Shown here in pieces: positions 8,478 to 36,536 of a stretch of DNA of 64,000 nt. Every line of letters begins with the position of its first letter. The stretch's first letter is position 1. This DNA comes from Rhodopirellula sp. P2 (lineage in GTDB: Bacteria > Planctomycetota > Planctomycetia > Pirellulales > Pirellulaceae): NCBI RefSeq assembly GCF_028768465.1, contig NZ_CP118225.1, positions 5,871,001-5,935,000 of the forward strand, in the 5' to 3' direction. Made by a program: the position numbers and the translations under genes. A model generated the notes under the pieces. It saw only the letters and a list, made by a program, of their open reading frames with translations, was not told where the DNA came from and did not search any database.

Positions 8478-9389
8478 CTACTTTCCGTCCAGCAATCTCG
8501 CTGGATTGGTCTGGGTCCACGCTTGGATGCTGGCTTCGTCGACACTCAATTCTTGACGCAGCTTTTCGGTCATGCTTTGAACCGATGTCGCGCACCCCGC
8601 GAAGTGCGTGCGGCACTCTGCCCAGGCCGCACCGTCGTCATCGACGTGCACGTTTTGGCCGGCCAACGCATACGTCCCTGGCCCCAACCCAGCCGCACTG
8701 ATCGCATCACTGACGATGATGATGTTCTGTTCGGGCACACACTTCAAATAGTTGCCCAGCGCCATCATCGGAATGTGAAAACCATCGGCAATGAAGCTGA
8801 TCGCCAACCGCGAGGCACGCGAAAGAACTCGCTGCACGATGTTGTCGTGACGGGGCACTTCCGAAGGACACGCGTTGCCCAGGTGAGTGAACATCGTCAG
8901 TCCGGAATCGATCGCGACATCCAAATCCTTCAACGTCGCGTTGGTGTGCCCCGCCGCCACGATGATTCCCTGCTCACTCAGCCAATTCGTCGTTTTGCCT
9001 GCCGAATCTTGCTCCGGTGCCAACGTGACCAATCGAACATGCCCGCGTCCCGCATCCACCAATCGCTGGGCATCCTCGCGATTCGCTGCCCGGATCTCCG
9101 ATTTCGGGTGCGCCCCCGCGTAACCATCCCAAGGGGAAAGGAACGGTCCTTCAACATGGATTCCGGCGACCGTTTTCGCGACCTCCTCATCCTGTTCGAT
9201 CGCGTCCGCCAAGCGGCCGATGCGAGCGCACATCGCGTCCATCGAGTCGGTGATCACCGTGCCCAAGCACCGATCCACCTGATGAGAACGCATGACTCGA
9301 CAGGCCTGCTGAACTTGCTCGATCGACAATTCATCGCCGTTGAAATCCACGCCCGCGTAACCGTTGACTTGCAGATCGACGTGGCTCAA
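8478..9389 (-). CDS. nagA: N-acetylglucosamine-6-phosphate deacetylase, barrel-only form
   Basis: It removes acetate from GlcNAc-6-phosphate to give glucosamine-6-phosphate for NagB. The TIM-barrel core is recognisable: HVDLQVNGYAGVDFNG at the start (the E. coli-like QxN form of the metal-site strand), HVEGPFLSPWDGYAGAHP, GHTNATLKDL, TMFTHLGNACPSEVPRHDN, ADGFHIP, and IIIVSDAISAAGLGPG with the catalytic aspartate. I chose the TTG at 9389 because it overlaps the nagB stop as TTGA and gives 303 residues. An in-frame start at 9674 would lie entirely inside nagB in another frame and adds only low-complexity sequence. NagA proteins are usually about 380 residues. Here both halves of the small beta-sandwich domain are missing, as the product stops at NPARLLDGK. 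Confidence 0.88.
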   Translation of the reverse strand: MSHVDLQVNGYAGVDFNGDELSIEQVQQACRVMRSHQVDRCLGTVITDSMDAMCARIGRLADAIEQDEEVAKTVAGIHVEGPFLSPWDGYAGAHPKSEIRAANREDAQRLVDAGRGHVRLVTLAPEQDSAGKTTNWLSEQGIIVAAGHTNATLKDLDVAIDSGLTMFTHLGNACPSEVPRHDNIVQRVLSRASRLAISFIADGFHIPMMALGNYLKCVPEQNIIIVSDAISAAGLGPGTYALAGQNVHVDDDGAAWAECRTHFAGCATSVQSMTEKLRQELSVDEASIQAWTQTNPARLLDGK

Positions 9390-10153
9390 TTGCCAGGCTC
9401 CATCGAATTGCGAGTGTCGCGATCCAGTTCTGCTGACGACGCGATGTCGATGATCAGCGTCGCATTGGGATGCTGATGCAGTGCCGAAGCCGGAACCATT
9501 GGGTCGTTGACCACCGACAGAGTTTTCGCCACCGCTTCCGCCTTTTGAGCGTCGGGAACGGAACAAAAGATTTGACGGGACTTCAGGATCTGCTGAACCG
9601 ACATGCTGATCGCTTGGGTCGGCACTTCCTCCAGAGACGAGAACCAACCTTCGCCAACCTGTTGCTCGCGACACCGTTGGTCCAAGTCCACCAGGAGATA
9701 CGGATCGGTGGTGGTGAAGTTGGCAGGGGGATCGTTGAACGCCAGGTGTGCGTTCTCACCGATTCCCACCAAAGACACGTCGATGCGTGTTTGACGAAGC
9801 AAATCGCCCACACGTTTCATCGTTTCCACCGGATCGCGATCCCCGCGAAGAAAATGAAACTCGCCAGGCGAGACTTTTTCAACAAAGCGTTCGCGAAGGT
9901 ATTTGCAAAACGAGGCGGGATGATCCGGCGAAATCCCGACGTACTCATCGAGATGGAAACCGGTCACTTTGGACCAATCGATGCCTGGTTGTTCTGCCAG
10001 AGACGACAAAACTTCAAACTGTGACGCACCGGTCGCCACGACGAGATTGGCATGACCGAACTCATTCAGTGCCATTCGGATGGAATCGGCGGCATTTCGG
10101 CCCACCCACAGCCCCATTTCGAAGCGGTCAGCGGCTAGGATCTTGTTCAACAT
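9386..10153 (-). CDS. nagB: Glucosamine-6-phosphate deaminase
   Basis: The 255-residue cytoplasmic enzyme converts glucosamine-6-phosphate to fructose-6-phosphate and ammonia, feeding amino sugars into glycolysis. Family motifs are the phosphate loop VVATGASQFEVL (about 38-49), FHLDEYVG with Asp69, and GIGENAHLAFNDP (130-142) with the catalytic His136. In E. coli the residue five after this histidine is Glu148; here it is Asp141. The usual GxxGH is GENAH. It overlaps nagA by 4 bases (translational coupling). It is divergent from the Nramp-type transporter, with only 54 bases between, which must hold both promoters. Substrates may come from chitin or peptidoglycan sugars. Confidence 0.93.
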   Translation of the reverse strand: MLNKILAADRFEMGLWVGRNAADSIRMALNEFGHANLVVATGASQFEVLSSLAEQPGIDWSKVTGFHLDEYVGISPDHPASFCKYLRERFVEKVSPGEFHFLRGDRDPVETMKRVGDLLRQTRIDVSLVGIGENAHLAFNDPPANFTTTDPYLLVDLDQRCREQQVGEGWFSSLEEVPTQAISMSVQQILKSRQIFCSVPDAQKAEAVAKTLSVVNDPMVPASALHQHPNATLIIDIASSAELDRDTRNSMEPGN

Positions 10154-10207: not shown

Positions 10208-11527
10208 GTGACACAGCCGGTAGCAGTAAACGAGAGTGGTTGGAAACGATATCGACGAATTGGCCCCGCGATTGTGGTCGCGGCCGTCGTTCTCGGCCCC
10301 GGAAGCATCGTCAGCGCCAGCCGCGTGGCCTGCGGCGAAGGCTTCGATCTGCTGTGGATCGTCCCCTTGGCGGGCATTTTAATGATCGGAATGACCGCTG
10401 CCTCGATGACCATCGGCGTTTGCAAAGAAAAAACTCTGTGCGGCTTGGTCGCCGATCGTTTTGGACGCTGGGCCGCGTGGGTCGTCGGATTGTCGCTGCT
10501 GATCGCGATCACGTTGTTCCAAGCCTCCAACAACAACGCGATGTGGATGGCCGTCAGTGGTTTCATTGGCCACGAAACAGTGGACAAATGGTCAACGCTC
10601 GGCCGAGCTTCGGGATTGCTGCTGTTCAACGGAGCCATCATTGCCTTGGTGTGGTTGGGCCGCCGAGATCTGTATCGCTGGATCGAACGAGCGATGGCGT
10701 TCCTCGTCGGTGCAATGGTGCTCTCGTTTGGAGCCAGCATGTTTGCATCGGCACCGGATTGGAGCGAAGTCATCGGCGGACTGATCCCCAGTTTGCCGAC
10801 CCCGGACGCGACAAGCACGCTGCCGACCGAAGCCGAAGCGGTGGCCAGTTCCGACAACGCCTCGATCGCCTGGATGAGCATGGCAGCGCTCGTCGCGACC
10901 ACGTTCTCCGTTGCGGGAGCGTTTTACCAGTCCTACCAAGTCAAAGAAAAAGGCTGGAAGCGAGCCAACCTCTCGACCGGTTTGGTCGACGTGTTTGTGG
11001 GCATTTCTTCCTTGGCCCTGATCACGGGAATGATCTACGTCACCGCTGCAACCGCCCTGCACGGCAACATCGCCCCCCAGGATCTGACCGACGCCTCCGT
11101 CGTCGCCTTGTCCCTCGAACCGCTGTTCGGATCCTGGGCCCGGATTGTCTTCTCCATCGGAATCTTCGCGGGTGCGGCCAGTTCATTCCTGGTCAACGCG
11201 TTGATCGGCGGTGTCGTCTTCTGCGACGCGATCGGAACCGATTGTCGAGTTTCCTCTCAACCGGTCCGACGAGCCACCATCGCGGCCCTGCTGGCGGGCT
11301 GGGCGGTTGCCAGCCTGGCGGCGCTCACCAACGTGGACCTGGTCAGCTTCATCGTCATCGCCCAGTCCCTGACGGTGCTTTGCTTTCCTTTGCTGGCCGG
11401 CGTGATCGTTTGGCAATTGCACACCTTGGACCGCCACGATGTCGCCTGGCCCATCCGAGTGCTGGCCTGGATCGGCTTGGCCGTCGTGATTGCCCTGTCC
11501 CTGAAAACGCTCAGCGGGTTGATTTGA
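10208..11527 (+). CDS. Atypical Nramp-family divalent-metal transporter
   Basis: The 439-residue inner-membrane protein begins at GTG and has about 11 hydrophobic helices in the Nramp order. The first helix carries GPAIVVAAVVLGPGSIVSASRVA. Canonical Nramps have DPGN in this helix; here it is GPGS (30-33), so the metal-binding Asp and Asn are both absent. The helix-6 MPH motif is also replaced, reading GAFYQSYQVKEK. The fold is clear, but the substrate (Mn, Fe, Mg or something else) cannot be inferred from the normal signature. It is divergent from nagB. No MntR-like or Fur-like operator was identified in the 54-base gap. Confidence 0.85.
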   Translation: MTQPVAVNESGWKRYRRIGPAIVVAAVVLGPGSIVSASRVACGEGFDLLWIVPLAGILMIGMTAASMTIGVCKEKTLCGLVADRFGRWAAWVVGLSLLIAITLFQASNNNAMWMAVSGFIGHETVDKWSTLGRASGLLLFNGAIIALVWLGRRDLYRWIERAMAFLVGAMVLSFGASMFASAPDWSEVIGGLIPSLPTPDATSTLPTEAEAVASSDNASIAWMSMAALVATTFSVAGAFYQSYQVKEKGWKRANLSTGLVDVFVGISSLALITGMIYVTAATALHGNIAPQDLTDASVVALSLEPLFGSWARIVFSIGIFAGAASSFLVNALIGGVVFCDAIGTDCRVSSQPVRRATIAALLAGWAVASLAALTNVDLVSFIVIAQSLTVLCFPLLAGVIVWQLHTLDRHDVAWPIRVLAWIGLAVVIALSLKTLSGLI

Positions 11528-11576: not shown

Positions 11577-12917
11577 TCAGTGAAGCGCCGCGGCAAACAC
11601 CTTCGAAATCTGAGCCTGTTGGTCCGGTGTGATCCAGCGCAAATCGATTGCCACACCGTCGTCGGAAGGTTCCACCAACAAACACGTGTCCCCCTTGGTC
11701 AATCGCTCGACGATGACCGCGGGGCTGGCCGTGTTGACTCGCACCAGCACCTGCCGAGAGGGCAACCGACCGGTGTCGAGAGGCATCGACGCGGGCTCCT
11801 GCGTGACCGTCGCCGACGTCACGCCGTCCACCCCTGACAACTGCGTCGCCAATCGCTCCGCTCGGTCTTGCAAATTGCTTTCGCCGGCGGAGATCAACCG
11901 GTCCACAGGCAATCCACTGTCACAGGCCAGTAGCGCCGCCGCGTTCAACATCGCGACCATCGCATCGGGTGCCTGCAACATCGAAACACGCGGGTCTTCG
12001 TCCCAGGCCTTCATCCATTCGGAGCGTCCGATCAGCATGCCCATGCCAGGCGTTCCGGTCAGAACCCCGCCGCCCATCAAGACGGCATCGGCCCCCGCCT
12101 TGATCAACGCCGCAGCACTGCCGCTGTTTTCCGATGAGGCCCCCAACAGCCGAGTCGAGGGTGCCACCACAACTTCCGAAACATGGTGCTTGCGTCGCGT
12201 TTCCGTATCGAGCGTGCAGCATGCTTTCGGCAACCGCACCAACGTCGTGGTTCGCTGACCGCCAAACGATCGACTGGGACAGCCCCCCATCGCGCCGACC
12301 AAGTCAGCTTCCGTGAAGCCCTCCGCTGTGCCCACTTCGCGGACCGAGCCTCCGGTCCAACGTTGCAGTTCATCGGCCAAGCACGCGGAACTGCCCGCTT
12401 GCAGCGGCACGGCACAACACCGCGGCACGAGAATCCGTCCCGATCGCCGGCCGCATTGTCCGAGCAAGCTCAAACCTGCATCAAATGAATTGACCACCAG
12501 GACTTGCACTTCGGTGCCACTGGCGTCGGATAAAAATCGTTCGACCGGTTGGGTGCGGCGCTGTCCCACAGGCAGAACGCAGTCGCCCATCAGATACGGC
12601 GCCGCAGCGGCCATCACGGCTGCGTCCACGGCCACGCCGCTTCCCAGTTCGTGCGTCAGATTCCCTGATCCATTGATCAGAGTGTGGGGACGCTGAAAGG
12701 ACGCTGCTGAAGACCACGCGTCGCGAAAGGGTCCCGCCCCGGCTTCGGCTTGCTTGAGGATCGAATCGACCTTTTCGCGAGCGACCCGAGGCAGTTCCTC
12801 GACCAATTTCGTGGCTTGGTCCTTGAGGTTCTGAGCGGTTTCCGGATCGGTCGCTTGCCGAGCCAGATCCGCCACACCACGTCGCAACAAATCCACCGTC
12901 CAGGGAGGCAGTGCCAT
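11577..12917 (-). CDS. SelA-like PLP-fold protein lacking the catalytic lysine
   Basis: This 446-residue protein aligns by eye with L-seryl-tRNA(Sec) selenium transferase. An N-terminal helical region (1-70) is followed by RPHTLINGSGNLTHELGSG (76-94), matching SelA's xINATGxxLHTNLGR. GADAVLMGGGVLTGTPGMG (275-293) matches GADLVxFSGDKLLGGPQAG. Then DPRVSMLQAPDAMVAMLNAAA parallels HPLxRALRxDKMTLAALEAT. The SelA lysine that binds pyridoxal phosphate falls at Val285 here. It is therefore probably not a SelA-type transferase as normally understood. It could be a non-catalytic paralogue, a structural or binding protein, or an enzyme using other chemistry. No selB, selC or selD is nearby. It is convergent with the Nramp-type gene. 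Confidence 0.78.
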   Translation of the reverse strand: MALPPWTVDLLRRGVADLARQATDPETAQNLKDQATKLVEELPRVAREKVDSILKQAEAGAGPFRDAWSSAASFQRPHTLINGSGNLTHELGSGVAVDAAVMAAAAPYLMGDCVLPVGQRRTQPVERFLSDASGTEVQVLVVNSFDAGLSLLGQCGRRSGRILVPRCCAVPLQAGSSACLADELQRWTGGSVREVGTAEGFTEADLVGAMGGCPSRSFGGQRTTTLVRLPKACCTLDTETRRKHHVSEVVVAPSTRLLGASSENSGSAAALIKAGADAVLMGGGVLTGTPGMGMLIGRSEWMKAWDEDPRVSMLQAPDAMVAMLNAAALLACDSGLPVDRLISAGESNLQDRAERLATQLSGVDGVTSATVTQEPASMPLDTGRLPSRQVLVRVNTASPAVIVERLTKGDTCLLVEPSDDGVAIDLRWITPDQQAQISKVFAAALH

Positions 12918-32448: not shown

Positions 32449-34041
32449 TCAAGCTTCACTGCGGTGCAACTTGTACTCAACGCTATCGACCAAGGCTTGC
32501 CAACTGGCTTCGATGATGTTGTCACTGACACCAATCGTTCCCCAAGTCTCTTTGCCATCGGTGCTCTCGATATTGACTCGAATCGATGCCGCCGTGCCGC
32601 TGCTGGAATCGACCACGCGAACCTTGTAATCGATCAGAGAAATTTCACTGAGTACCGGATACGCTCCCGCCAAGGCCTTCCGCAATCCCGCATCGAGCGC
32701 GTTGACCGGACCATGACCTTCTGCGGCATCAAACCACAGCGTGTCACCGACCTGCAACTTGATGATCGCTTCGGCAAATGCGACTTGGCTCTTCACATCG
32801 CGATCACCAGCAACCACTCGGAATTTGATCGTCTCAAAGTGGGGACGGAAGGTCCCGGCCACACGGCGAACCAACAGGTCAAACGAAGCTGTCGCGGACT
32901 CAAATTGATAACCACGATTTTCCAGTCGCACGACCTCGGCCAAGATCTTGTTTTGAAGTTCTTTGTCGTCGCCCAGATTGTACTTTCCGGCGATCGCCTC
33001 GATGTTGCTGCGCCCGGACAACTCGCTCACGAGGATCCGGCGTTCGTTGCCGACCAACGTGGGGTCAATGTGCTCGTACGTGCTGGCGGCTTTGTTGATG
33101 GCGTGCACGTGCATGCCGCCTTTGTGAGCGAAGGCGCTTTGGCCGACAAACGGTTGGTTGTTACGCCACTGCAAATTGGCTGTCTCGTAGACGAATCGTG
33201 ACAGTTCCGTCAGTTGATGCAGCGGTCGGCCCCCCAGAACAGTCGTGTTCTCTTTCTTGAGTGCCAAGTTGGCAATCACAGCGATCAAGTCGACATTCCC
33301 ACATCGTTCCCCGATGCCATTGATCGTGCCTTGCACCTGAGTCGCACCGACATCGACGGCGGCCAACGAATTCGCCACCGCGAGTTCACAATCGTTGTGA
33401 CAGTGAATTCCGAACTCCACGTCGTAAGACGCCATTGCTTCTTTCGCGATCCGGGTCACCTCCGCCACTCGTCCGGGCAACGTGCCACCGTTGGTATCGC
33501 ACAGAGCCAACCACTTGGCACCCGACGCCGCTGCGGCCTGCAGCGTTTTGATCGCGTACTCCGGATTCGCGTTGTACCCATCAAAGAAGTGTTCCGCGTC
33601 GTAGATCAGTTCGCTGTGTCCCGCCAAAAACTCCGCCGACTCACCGATCATGGCCAGGTTTTCATCCAGCGAGGCCCGCAGCACTTCGGTGACATGAAAA
33701 TCCCATGTTTTGCCAACCAACGTGCAACACGGCGTCTTGGCGGCAACCAAAGCTTGCATCCCGGGGTCGTCTTCGGCTTTCATCGATCGCCGCCGCGTCA
33801 TCCCAAAGGCACAGACCTTGGATTTCCCCAGATCGTGGTTGCGAATTTGTTCAAAGAAGGCAACGTCTTTTTCGTTGCTCAGCGGGTAACCGCCCTCGAT
33901 GAATTCAATGCCAATTTCAGCCAACCGAACCGCAATGTTCAGTTTGTCTTGCAGGGAAAAACTCACACCTTCGCCTTGCGAGCCGTCTCGCAAAGTGGTG
34001 TCGTAGATCAAGACCGGTTGGGCCGACGAAGTGGCACTCAT
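32449..34041 (-). CDS. cimA: Citramalate synthase
   Basis: The 530-residue enzyme condenses acetyl-CoA with pyruvate to (R)-citramalate, the entry to the threonine-independent isoleucine route. The HMGL-like barrel starts LIYDTTLRDGSQGEGVSFSLQDK and has the metal-site HCHNDCELAVANSLA (about 207-220) and GTINGIGERCGNVDL. A C-terminal LeuA-type regulatory domain follows (about 385-520). CSLVG-type sequence (CCTLVGKTWDFHVTEVL) and overall length favour citramalate synthase over 2-isopropylmalate synthase. Substrate choice is inference from family resemblance. Confidence 0.9.
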   Translation of the reverse strand: MSATSSAQPVLIYDTTLRDGSQGEGVSFSLQDKLNIAVRLAEIGIEFIEGGYPLSNEKDVAFFEQIRNHDLGKSKVCAFGMTRRRSMKAEDDPGMQALVAAKTPCCTLVGKTWDFHVTEVLRASLDENLAMIGESAEFLAGHSELIYDAEHFFDGYNANPEYAIKTLQAAAASGAKWLALCDTNGGTLPGRVAEVTRIAKEAMASYDVEFGIHCHNDCELAVANSLAAVDVGATQVQGTINGIGERCGNVDLIAVIANLALKKENTTVLGGRPLHQLTELSRFVYETANLQWRNNQPFVGQSAFAHKGGMHVHAINKAASTYEHIDPTLVGNERRILVSELSGRSNIEAIAGKYNLGDDKELQNKILAEVVRLENRGYQFESATASFDLLVRRVAGTFRPHFETIKFRVVAGDRDVKSQVAFAEAIIKLQVGDTLWFDAAEGHGPVNALDAGLRKALAGAYPVLSEISLIDYKVRVVDSSSGTAASIRVNIESTDGKETWGTIGVSDNIIEASWQALVDSVEYKLHRSEA

Positions 34042-34133
34042 GTAGCTGATTCAGGTGGGGGATAAAATCAAAGAACAGGGAAATCGGTGAGACGATCGCA
34101 GCTTGGGAAAGCATCGCAGGTTTGCGACCCCGA

Positions 34134-34688
34134 CTAACGGGTCTCCGTCGAATTTTCAATCACGCGAGGCGATTGGTACGGGTTCGCAGAGGTTGCCGCC
34201 GAAGATGAAACGGGGTCGACCTCCGAGCCCGCAGAAATCGATGCGTCCGGAACGGCCGTCGTTTCGTGGTCGTCCGCCGACAAGTCCGTTTCTGGTTGCG
34301 GTTGCTCCAGATTCACACTTTGATTCTTTCGTTCTCGCCGTTTGCGAACCCAAATCATCGCCATCAGTGCAAAAACCAAACACACGATCGTCATCGCAAC
34401 GACCAATCGAAATGACAACGGGTTGATGTCTTCCCCCGCCGCCTGTTCAACCATCAAAACAACAAATCGAATCGCTCCACAACCAAAACCAAGCATCCCC
34501 AGCGTCAACGCGACCACGGTTGCACTCATGCGTCGATGCGGGTTCAGCCCCACCACGCCCAAGAACAACAGCGGGATGCCAAACATCATCGGGACGAACT
34601 GGGTGTAGCTTTTTTCCGTCGTCACGCTGAGTGCGGCCACCGTCAGTCCACACAGGACCAGCCCGAAGAAAATTCCGATTCTGGCCAT
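34134..34688 (-). CDS. Four-helix membrane protein with C-terminal NPYQSP motif
   Basis: The 184-residue protein begins MARIGIFFGLVLCGL at ATG 34688. It has four predicted membrane helices (about 2-19, 30-48, 57-80, 96-117), then a basic patch VRKRRERK and an acidic, Ser-rich tail. The tail ends SANPYQSPRVIEN, a motif common in planctomycete membrane proteins. The open frame extends upstream to 34808, but the chosen start puts the first helix at the N-terminus. Function is unknown. It is downstream of cimA's promoter region and convergent with nothing close. Confidence 0.75.
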   Translation of the reverse strand: MARIGIFFGLVLCGLTVAALSVTTEKSYTQFVPMMFGIPLLFLGVVGLNPHRRMSATVVALTLGMLGFGCGAIRFVVLMVEQAAGEDINPLSFRLVVAMTIVCLVFALMAMIWVRKRRERKNQSVNLEQPQPETDLSADDHETTAVPDASISAGSEVDPVSSSAATSANPYQSPRVIENSTETR

Positions 34689-34865
34689 GGTTGTTTCAGG
34701 TGCCCGTCGCGATTGGACATAGGTGTTCCGCCGAAGAAACCAAAGGACGGTTTCCAGAGCCCTGTTGTATCGTTTTGAAGCCAATTTCTGTAGGGCCAGT
34801 GCTTTCATCGCGTGGAGCGGGCAAAAACATTTCCTCCAGAAGTCGTAAACACCGGGTTTTACGGG

Positions 34866-36536
34866 TCAATCACCCTGAAAAAGCTCGCGGTCTCTGAAAA
34901 AGACCGCGGTCACCCACCAAATCACCGGCTGGACCGCCAGCAACCCCGCACCGACCGCGATCGCAATCACCTGCCGATCCATGTCCGTCATCACCGCCGC
35001 GGTCCCTCCGGCCACTCCCGCGGCAAGGAACGAGGGCACCATCCCGACCGCCAACACAAACATGTACAGCATCGCTCGCCCGCCCTGCAGCACATCCGGC
35101 GTGCCGCTGGGCATCGCCCTCAACACCGTGGCCGCGGTGACCAGGTTGATCGCGGATCCATACGCCACATCGAGCCCCAATCCTGCCAACAACACCGCCA
35201 GGTTCTCCCCCCATCCCCGCGTCGTGACGAATGCGGCCACGACCGCGAAAGCGAGTCGAATCGCAAACAAGATCACCAACTGCCCCGCCAGCATCCCAAT
35301 CACAATCGCGATCGGACGACACGGCAACATCCGAAACCATGTCAACGTCTTTGGCGTCATCGCCATGCCAATCGGCTGACTCAATGTCAACAGGAACCCC
35401 AAGTAGGTCGAAGCCACCATCGCAATCGGCATCGACCATTCTCGAAAATGGGCGTGAATGGTTTCCGGTCGAAAAAATGGCAGGACCATCAACACCACCC
35501 CAGTGACCAGCCCCACGCAAACAAGACCGAACAACAACTTTCCATTGCGACGAACCGCGAAAGTGACTTGATGCCAAGCCACCGGTCCAATGCCTCCCCA
35601 CCAAGGGAACTCAAACAGCCTCCACGTCGATCGATGTTCTGTCTTGTTGAGCCGTCCGAATTGCCCCGAACGAAATCGCTGGATCCGAACCTGTTTTCGC
35701 GAGACGCCTTCCACGGCAAGTTCCGCAAACCCGACATTGACCCAATAGCAAGCCCCAAACCCAACCACCAAGGTGGCCAGGCACACGCACGTCCACCCCA
35801 GCATCGCCATGCCAAGCGGTGCACTGAGCAACTTTCCAAACGCCAGGAACGGCAGCGTCATCACGGTCCCCAACATCGATGACTGACACCCCAGCAACCA
35901 CGCTTGCCAAGAGAACCCGGCGTCGCTCATCCCCAGCGGCAGCGACGTGATCAACAACAATGCCACCGCCCCCAACAACGCCGACGCAACCAGCGTGCGA
36001 ACCGTCGAATTCAACACCGGCTTGCTGATCGCGTGCAAGGTCGTCAGCGCAGTGACCGTCATCCCACCCGTGTAAATCGCAAGCACCGCCGACGGGTAAC
36101 TGCCCGCACCGGGCAAAGCGAACACCGCCATCAAACAACTGCTGACCACCCAGGTCATCGCCAACGTCATCAACCGATAGGAAAGGATTTGATGATCGCT
36201 GAACGGCCCCGCCAACACGAACTGCAACTCCGGGGGACGCAGTTCCGTGATCTGCTGCCCAATGTCGAAGTAAACCGCCATTGCCACAATCACCAACATC
36301 ATCAACGGAATCGTCGATGTGACGGTCGAATACATTTGGATGCCATCCAGCGACCCTGTCTGACTCGCGACGATCATGGGCATCAATCCCATGCCGACCG
36401 TCCCCACAACCATCAGGGCCACAAAGATTCCCGACGGGGTCTTCAGATGCCGAGCCAATTGACGCAAAGCGGACTTCAACAGCACCCCGGTCAATCGAGT
36501 CAACGCGGGATCGATGATCGAACGCCTTTCGCTCAT
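34866..36536 (-). CDS. ABC-2-type exporter permease (module 2)
   Basis: The 556-residue integral membrane protein has about 12 hydrophobic helices, such as GIFVALMVVGTVGMGLMPMIV, LVIVAMAVYFDIGQQI, and VIAIAVGAGLLAVQPVIWW near the end. It starts [32 protein letters not shown], an amphipathic N-terminus typical of ABC export permeases. It overlaps its ATPase by 4 bases and is third in a coupled unit with the CrtI-like oxidoreductase and ATPase. Substrate unknown. Confidence 0.85.
   Translation of the reverse strand: MSERRSIIDPALTRLTGVLLKSALRQLARHLKTPSGIFVALMVVGTVGMGLMPMIVASQTGSLDGIQMYSTVTSTIPLMMLVIVAMAVYFDIGQQITELRPPELQFVLAGPFSDHQILSYRLMTLAMTWVVSSCLMAVFALPGAGSYPSAVLAIYTGGMTVTALTTLHAISKPVLNSTVRTLVASALLGAVALLLITSLPLGMSDAGFSWQAWLLGCQSSMLGTVMTLPFLAFGKLLSAPLGMAMLGWTCVCLATLVVGFGACYWVNVGFAELAVEGVSRKQVRIQRFRSGQFGRLNKTEHRSTWRLFEFPWWGGIGPVAWHQVTFAVRRNGKLLFGLVCVGLVTGVVLMVLPFFRPETIHAHFREWSMPIAMVASTYLGFLLTLSQPIGMAMTPKTLTWFRMLPCRPIAIVIGMLAGQLVILFAIRLAFAVVAAFVTTRGWGENLAVLLAGLGLDVAYGSAINLVTAATVLRAMPSGTPDVLQGGRAMLYMFVLAVGMVPSFLAAGVAGGTAAVMTDMDRQVIAIAVGAGLLAVQPVIWWVTAVFFRDRELFQGD

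Follow-up and report, generated by a model that had tools for sequence, protein, structure and literature searches.

The lysine-less SelA-family gene

The window, by which we mean the whole stretch of 64,000 nucleotides that was analysed, comes from a genome of 7.29 Mb assembled as a single contig. It carries on its reverse strand a gene for a protein of the SelA family in which the lysine that would hold pyridoxal phosphate (PLP) is replaced by valine. The gene and the parts of its product are as follows.

11577..12917, (-) strand: coding sequence of the lysine-less SelA-family protein, 446 residues, with an ATG start and the stop codon at 11577-11579
12708..12917, (-) strand: N-terminal helical domain, residues 1-70, where SelA has its tRNA-binding domain, with the clade motif MALPPWT
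11919..12707, (-) strand: large fold-type-I domain, residues 71-333, with an emptied cofactor site (AlphaFold fold and substituted catalytic positions)
12063..12065, (-) strand: codon of Val285, which replaces the PLP lysine (phmmer and family alignment)
11580..11918, (-) strand: C-terminal small domain, residues 334-446 (AlphaFold model), with the clade-specific S387-R388-Q389 and W428
11835..11882, (-) strand: helix 346-361 (ESNLQDRAERLATQLS), which carries Asn348; of the surface elements held in common with the sister group of lysine-bearing SelAs, it is the most constrained

The original prediction, made from the sequence alone, was of a SelA-like fold with valine at the lysine position, and both parts of it are upheld. 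The protein matches the Pfam SelA model PF03841 with 35.2 bits (gathering score 22.8) over residues 270-429, and phmmer against the PDB aligns residues 271-439 with the Aquifex SelA 3w1h (E 1e-7), placing V285 on K285. It scores 48.1 bits with the NCBIfam selA equivalog model TIGR00474, far under the cut-off of 267.9, and so falls within the broad family and outside the equivalog. An AlphaFold model built on a 48-row alignment has a pLDDT of 84.5 and a pTM of 0.78, and the best 22 PDB matches that Foldseek returns for it are all SelA chains, with a target-normalised TM of up to 0.81. The N-terminal part is poorly modelled, residues 1-60 lying mostly at pLDDT 54-69; residues 1-70 are predicted to form three helices (pLDDT 54-74), which align at the N-terminal domain of SelA with a different sequence and low model confidence. 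Orthologues in four congeners are 82-91% identical.

The likeness to SelA (8UZW) lies in the fold of the whole chain (Foldseek), in N-terminal helices that precede the fold-type-I domain and in the common descent indicated by the trees described below; in contrast to SelA, the window protein lacks the PLP lysine and the selenophosphate-binding arginines, and its genome lacks SelB, tRNA-Sec and SelD. D-Glucosaminate-6-phosphate ammonia-lyase (7LC0) and Cap15 (8T7J) have a related fold and stand further off than SelA, at Foldseek ranks 23-27. They are PF03841-like proteins with no role in selenocysteine synthesis and, unlike the window protein, are annotated as catalytic PLP enzymes.

Absence of the cofactor lysine in relatives

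Among 13 proteins of the genus, the position of Lys285 holds V in 12 and T in one; lysine is absent from 13/13, which rules out a one-off sequencing or annotation error as the source of Val285. The same position was read in 131 SelA-family proteins of the Pirellulales (at least 360 residues long, contained copies removed), where it is K in 37 and another residue in 94, numbers that are not a frequency because the genomes were picked for having a match. The 94 lysine-less proteins hold G (51), V (13), P (6), F (6), H (5), L (3), A (3), R (3), T (2), C (1) and Q (1), and seven further Pirellulaceae proteins have K, K, Q, N, K, G and K, the N being that of L192. Outside the order, K was found in 22/22 SelA loci, these being the best-scoring ones; it should be noted that the lysine of the 37 and the 22 lysine-bearing SelAs is present by selection or by reading. 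Relatives thus also lack the lysine. Valine itself is not a conserved feature, there being eleven residue types at its place, and N in L192. An alternative conserved lysine, which might have taken over the role, was rejected as well, since K occupies at most 49% of the lysine-less rows at any column compared; the two columns richest in it, residues 16 and 32, both lie in the N-terminal helices.

Selenocysteine machinery in the genomes

It had been remarked that no selB, selC or selD is seen near the gene. This is correct, and by the criterion of matches over cut-off it extends to the whole genome. A genome-wide profile search found neither SelA nor SelB over the curated cut-off; the best SelD match has 63.3 bits against a cut-off of 125, and the best match to the tRNA-Sec model has 46.9 bits, just under the gathering score of 47. 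The window protein thus does not have the SelB, tRNA-Sec and SelD that belong with a SelA proper. Here and below, only matches over cut-off are counted for SelB and SelD, because their models give matches below it in all 14 control genomes. The Rfam tRNA-Sec model exceeds its gathering score in 34/80 genomes: 18 of these matches are convincing (64.7-75.9 bits), and the other 16, at 47-50 bits and with lengths of 83-86 bases, we take to be tRNA-Ser.

A tally of SelB was drawn from two sets of 80 genomes (80+80), selected by us and joined with the site readings. SelB is over cut-off in 37/41 genomes in which a lysine-bearing SelA was read and in 4/80 in which only lysine-less forms were read (G172, G342, G344 and G351). 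G342, G344 and G351 also have a SelA over the family cut-off whose site is unread, and G172 has a second full-length family member. The four genomes in which a lysine-bearing SelA is unaccompanied by SelB over cut-off (G001, G005, G220 and G380) indicate that loss of the lysine did not follow immediately on loss of SelB; the genes concerned (L118, L013, L193 and L195, respectively) may represent intermediate stages. Full selenocysteine genes are described for a Rhodopirellula-like isolate P2 (PMC4807772), which fits the presence of a second SelA, with the lysine, in some of the genomes analysed here.

Probable descent from selA

In an unrooted tree of the 131 proteins, a single branch parts the lysine-less from the lysine-bearing forms (SH-aLRT 96). 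When rooted with SelAs from outside the order, a tree with 42 of the 94 lysine-less rows places these as one clade inside the lysine-bearing proteins (SH-aLRT 96); a second rooted tree, with 30 lysine-less rows, recovers their clade with UFBoot 99 and SH-aLRT 95 and puts the lysine-bearing L193 (G220) inside it. Both rooted trees are subsets from which several long branches were left out.

The gene neighbourhoods add to this. In eight lysine-bearing contexts, selB lies directly upstream of selA in L197, L198, L199 and L206, guaB lies downstream in these four and in L200, proC is upstream in three, and in most a gene whose product has ~290 residues stands between selA and guaB. The order selB-selA-(290-residue gene)-guaB, with proC nearby, is found in L197, L198 and L206 and partly in L199 and L200. 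Five lysine-less loci, L202 (genus g2), L096 and L097 (g3), L092 (G280) and L208 (from another family, f7), have guaB, the 290-residue gene or proC as well, and selB is absent from each; the 131-row tree unites L092 with the window protein in the PPWT-type group. These neighbours, common to both forms, place the lysine-less and lysine-bearing genes at one ancestral locus. The markers occur at 5/46 lysine-less contexts, and the other 41, that of the window included, no longer have them; the lack of a conserved gene order across the lysine-less genes counts against the reading. The protein had been described as a lysine-less paralogue of SelA. The SelA fold and the missing lysine stand; the gene, however, is better seen as selA itself, descended in place once the selenocysteine system had been lost, than as an independent paralogue, as the neighbours at five loci suggest and with the window locus itself among those devoid of them. 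Also seen was a pair of inverted lysine-less copies with identical scores (L083; G369:C58:31579-32856 (-) and 33966-35243 (+)).

Alternatively, the lysine-less protein could be an ancient paralogue that arose by duplication before or early in the Pirellulales, lost its lysine once and replaced SelA independently of function. We regard this as rather unlikely. The single clade of the rooted trees speaks for it (with L193 inside the clade in one of them), as does the occurrence of both kinds together in nine genomes. In those nine, however, the lysine-bearing SelA falls outside the sister group, which suggests a later or separate SelA and fits a different SelA having been reacquired or having replaced the earlier one. 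Moreover, a SelA scoring 500 bits or more is present in 75 Pirellulaceae genomes, and at E 1e-15 a second family member is absent from 73 of them, contrary to what would be expected of two free paralogues; in the two exceptions, the second copy has the lysine (G237) or is unread (G253). The common neighbours again assign both forms to a single locus. Proteins that decayed independently may be grouped by their long branches, which may partly explain the single lysine-less clade. If a single locus holds both forms within one family, simple descent requires the lysine to have been lost more than once; a single early loss combined with gene replacement is an alternative.

Decay of the active site

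The account of orphan SelAs by Cravedi et al. (2015, PMC4607533) names as catalytic or ligand residues of SelA Lys285, Arg86, Arg312, Arg315, Arg119, Asp284, Ser217 and Ser282. Each is kept in 36 or 37 of the 37 lysine-bearing Pirellulales SelAs and in 22/22 outside the order. In the 94 lysine-less proteins R86 is kept in 4, R119 in 8, S217 in 10, S282 in 17, D284 in 25, K285 in 0, R312 in 13 and R315 in 10. The window protein keeps 0/8: K285 has become V285, R86 G94, R312 S312, R315 Q315, D284 G284, S217 A232 and S282 G282, and R119 is deleted. At such a distance the positions of Ser217, Arg312 and Arg315 are aligned with less certainty, although the independent phmmer alignment agrees for Arg312 and Arg315. 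None of the selenophosphate-site residues (Arg86, Arg119, Arg312, Arg315 and Asp284) is therefore found in it.

Contacts between subunits are affected too. Arg174, which bridges dimers in the SelA decamer, is kept in 10/94 lysine-less proteins, and its partner Asp199 in 70/94; the corresponding residues of the window protein are S177 and D205, and it hence lacks the decamer contact. Because Arg174 is mostly lost, the window protein is probably a dimer rather than a ring of ten subunits.

In fold-type-I sugar 3-dehydratases, which depend on pyridoxamine phosphate (PMP), a conserved histidine takes the place of the Schiff-base lysine. By analogy, the window protein might still be an enzyme that holds PLP or PMP without such a lysine and performs new chemistry, an option that had been raised with the original prediction. 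The site loop, GGG-x-LTGTPGMG, is still recognisable; G283, G288, P290, G293 and G297 are 79-100% conserved in the lysine-less proteins; and one group, g2, has His at the lysine place (G015, G075, G087 and G091). The kept glycines and proline are, however, also those that the fold requires, and in contrast to the conserved histidine of the dehydratases the lysine-less family is variable at the same place, with eleven residue types that include Pro and Phe. The residues reported to contact PLP or the anion have gone as well, and L136 (G172, genus g79) has lost ~90 residues from the cofactor domain with both ends kept. Since all eight catalytic and ligand residues are gone from the window protein, we consider lysine-free chemistry very unlikely. 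Related frames of 373-382 residues in G109, G121, G160, G164, G176, G180 and G188, putatively lysine-less, give the same two-piece match to the profile.

Retention and constraint

A profile built from the lysine-less proteins finds a family member of either kind in 226/241 Pirellulaceae genomes and in 156/159 good ones. The good genomes without it are G295, G388 and G390, so the gene is not strictly essential. In an even draw from the other families of the Pirellulales a member is present in 84/159 genomes, and near-universal retention is therefore a feature of the Pirellulaceae. Within the genus the dN/dS of the lysine-less gene is 0.07-0.21, which exceeds the 0.015-0.083 of five neighbouring genes two- to tenfold, and in most pairs residues 1-70 have the lowest value of three parts of the protein (0.01-0.18). 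Judged by these substitution rates, the gene is alive under purifying selection, with a constraint that is moderate and weaker than that on its neighbours.

The PPWT group has residues identical in 23/23 representatives, namely P4, W6, A35, P43, A46, N82, G85, R166, G297, N348, R352, A376, S387, L406, D425, L426 and W428; the new, clade-specific invariant residues are W6, A376, S387, Q389 and W428. That the gene is a functionless, decaying relic of selA is hardly credible: the selenocysteine machinery and the catalytic residues are lost and dN/dS lies above that of the neighbours, but the reading frame is intact at a dN/dS of 0.07-0.21 across the genus, nearly every good Pirellulaceae genome has the gene, and its new invariant residues are specific to the clade.

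Asn348 has a particular distribution. It is present in 23/23 of the PPWT group, in 97% of 38 other lysine-less rows and in 95% of 20 SelAs of the sister group, as against 0/16 other Pirellulales SelAs and 0/22 outside the order; in this comparison neither SelA group includes L013, and L128, which lies just outside the sister group, was counted with the other SelAs. No other column in the list is so sharp, and L341, R355 and A357 lean the same way. Being common to the sister SelAs and the lysine-less proteins, Asn348 predates the loss of the lysine and has persisted beyond that of the active site.

A possible second function

The window protein is, in our judgement, probably a SelA-derived pseudoenzyme kept for a non-catalytic binding role that does not depend on the lysine. 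The ancestral selA would have had, or gained, a second role independent of PLP, for which the fold as a scaffold, the helical domain at the N terminus and the Asn348 helix of the C-terminal part would be needed. Once selenocysteine decoding was lost, this role would have retained the gene as the active site decayed. It would most likely consist in binding an RNA or a protein partner rather than in catalysis, and most likely as a dimer; the earlier thought of a regulator or a structural partner is possible in these terms. We put forward more tentatively, and with distinctly less assurance, a fuller account in which Pirellulales SelA was bifunctional before the lysine was lost, through a role of the Asn348 helix and the N-terminal domain. 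That role alone would then have kept a family-wide pseudoenzyme at the locus in nearly every Pirellulaceae genome, and lineages that reused selenocysteine would have taken a different SelA beside it.

The surroundings of the gene did not point to a partner. Beyond its nearest species the window gene has no recurrent neighbour, and an operon partner was accordingly rejected; elsewhere, alaS divergently adjoins lysine-less genes in five loci (L068-L071 and L091), and a gene taken for acnA adjoins them in three (L086-L088). No sigma-70-like site that would make a strong promoter was found near the gene, and terminator-like sites there number 2 against 1.8 expected. Nor is RNA binding supported by charge, the N-terminal domain being at most weakly basic, with a net charge of 0 in the window protein and a clade mean of +1.2.

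SelA homologues in organisms without the selenocysteine trait have been noted before, and a new function was suggested for them by Zhang et al. (2006, PMC1794560) and again in the 2016 survey of Zhang and co-workers (PMC5029168). The closest parallel is the orphan SelA of Helicobacter pylori and H. acinonychis, for which Cravedi et al. describe a selA kept after loss of the trait under relaxed but purifying selection, with the dimer-dimer contacts lost. The lysine-less family resembles it, as there portrayed, in the retention of selA without selenocysteine, in purifying selection and in the lost contacts between dimers. In other respects the two are mirror images: the Helicobacter protein, by the same account, has no N-terminal tRNA domain any more but retains Lys285 and the arginines, whereas the lysine-less family retains an N-terminal domain and has lost Lys285 and the arginines. 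Because the published orphan SelA kept its PLP lysine, an alternative enzyme activity was the natural guess from that description. Our searches of the literature, which covered open-licence papers, found no earlier report of a lysine-less SelA. Where the catalytic site has gone and the gene is kept across a whole bacterial family, a second function becomes separable from catalysis and can be tested directly, also in relatives that have a lysine-bearing SelA at the same locus.

Other genes in the window

Two further genes of the window deserve mention. On the reverse strand at 8478-9674, beside nagB, is a NagA-like frame for which, read from its GTG start, Pfam gives no match at E 1, although congeners have a similar but shorter one. 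At 10208-11527 on the forward strand lies a gene for a divergent transporter of the Nramp fold, with 156.6 bits to the Pfam Nramp model, 43.5 bits to NCBIfam Nramp_1 against a cut-off of 50 bits, and scores far below cut-off for the other two Nramp models. Its N-terminal part reads GPGS at the place where canonical Nramp proteins have DPGN.
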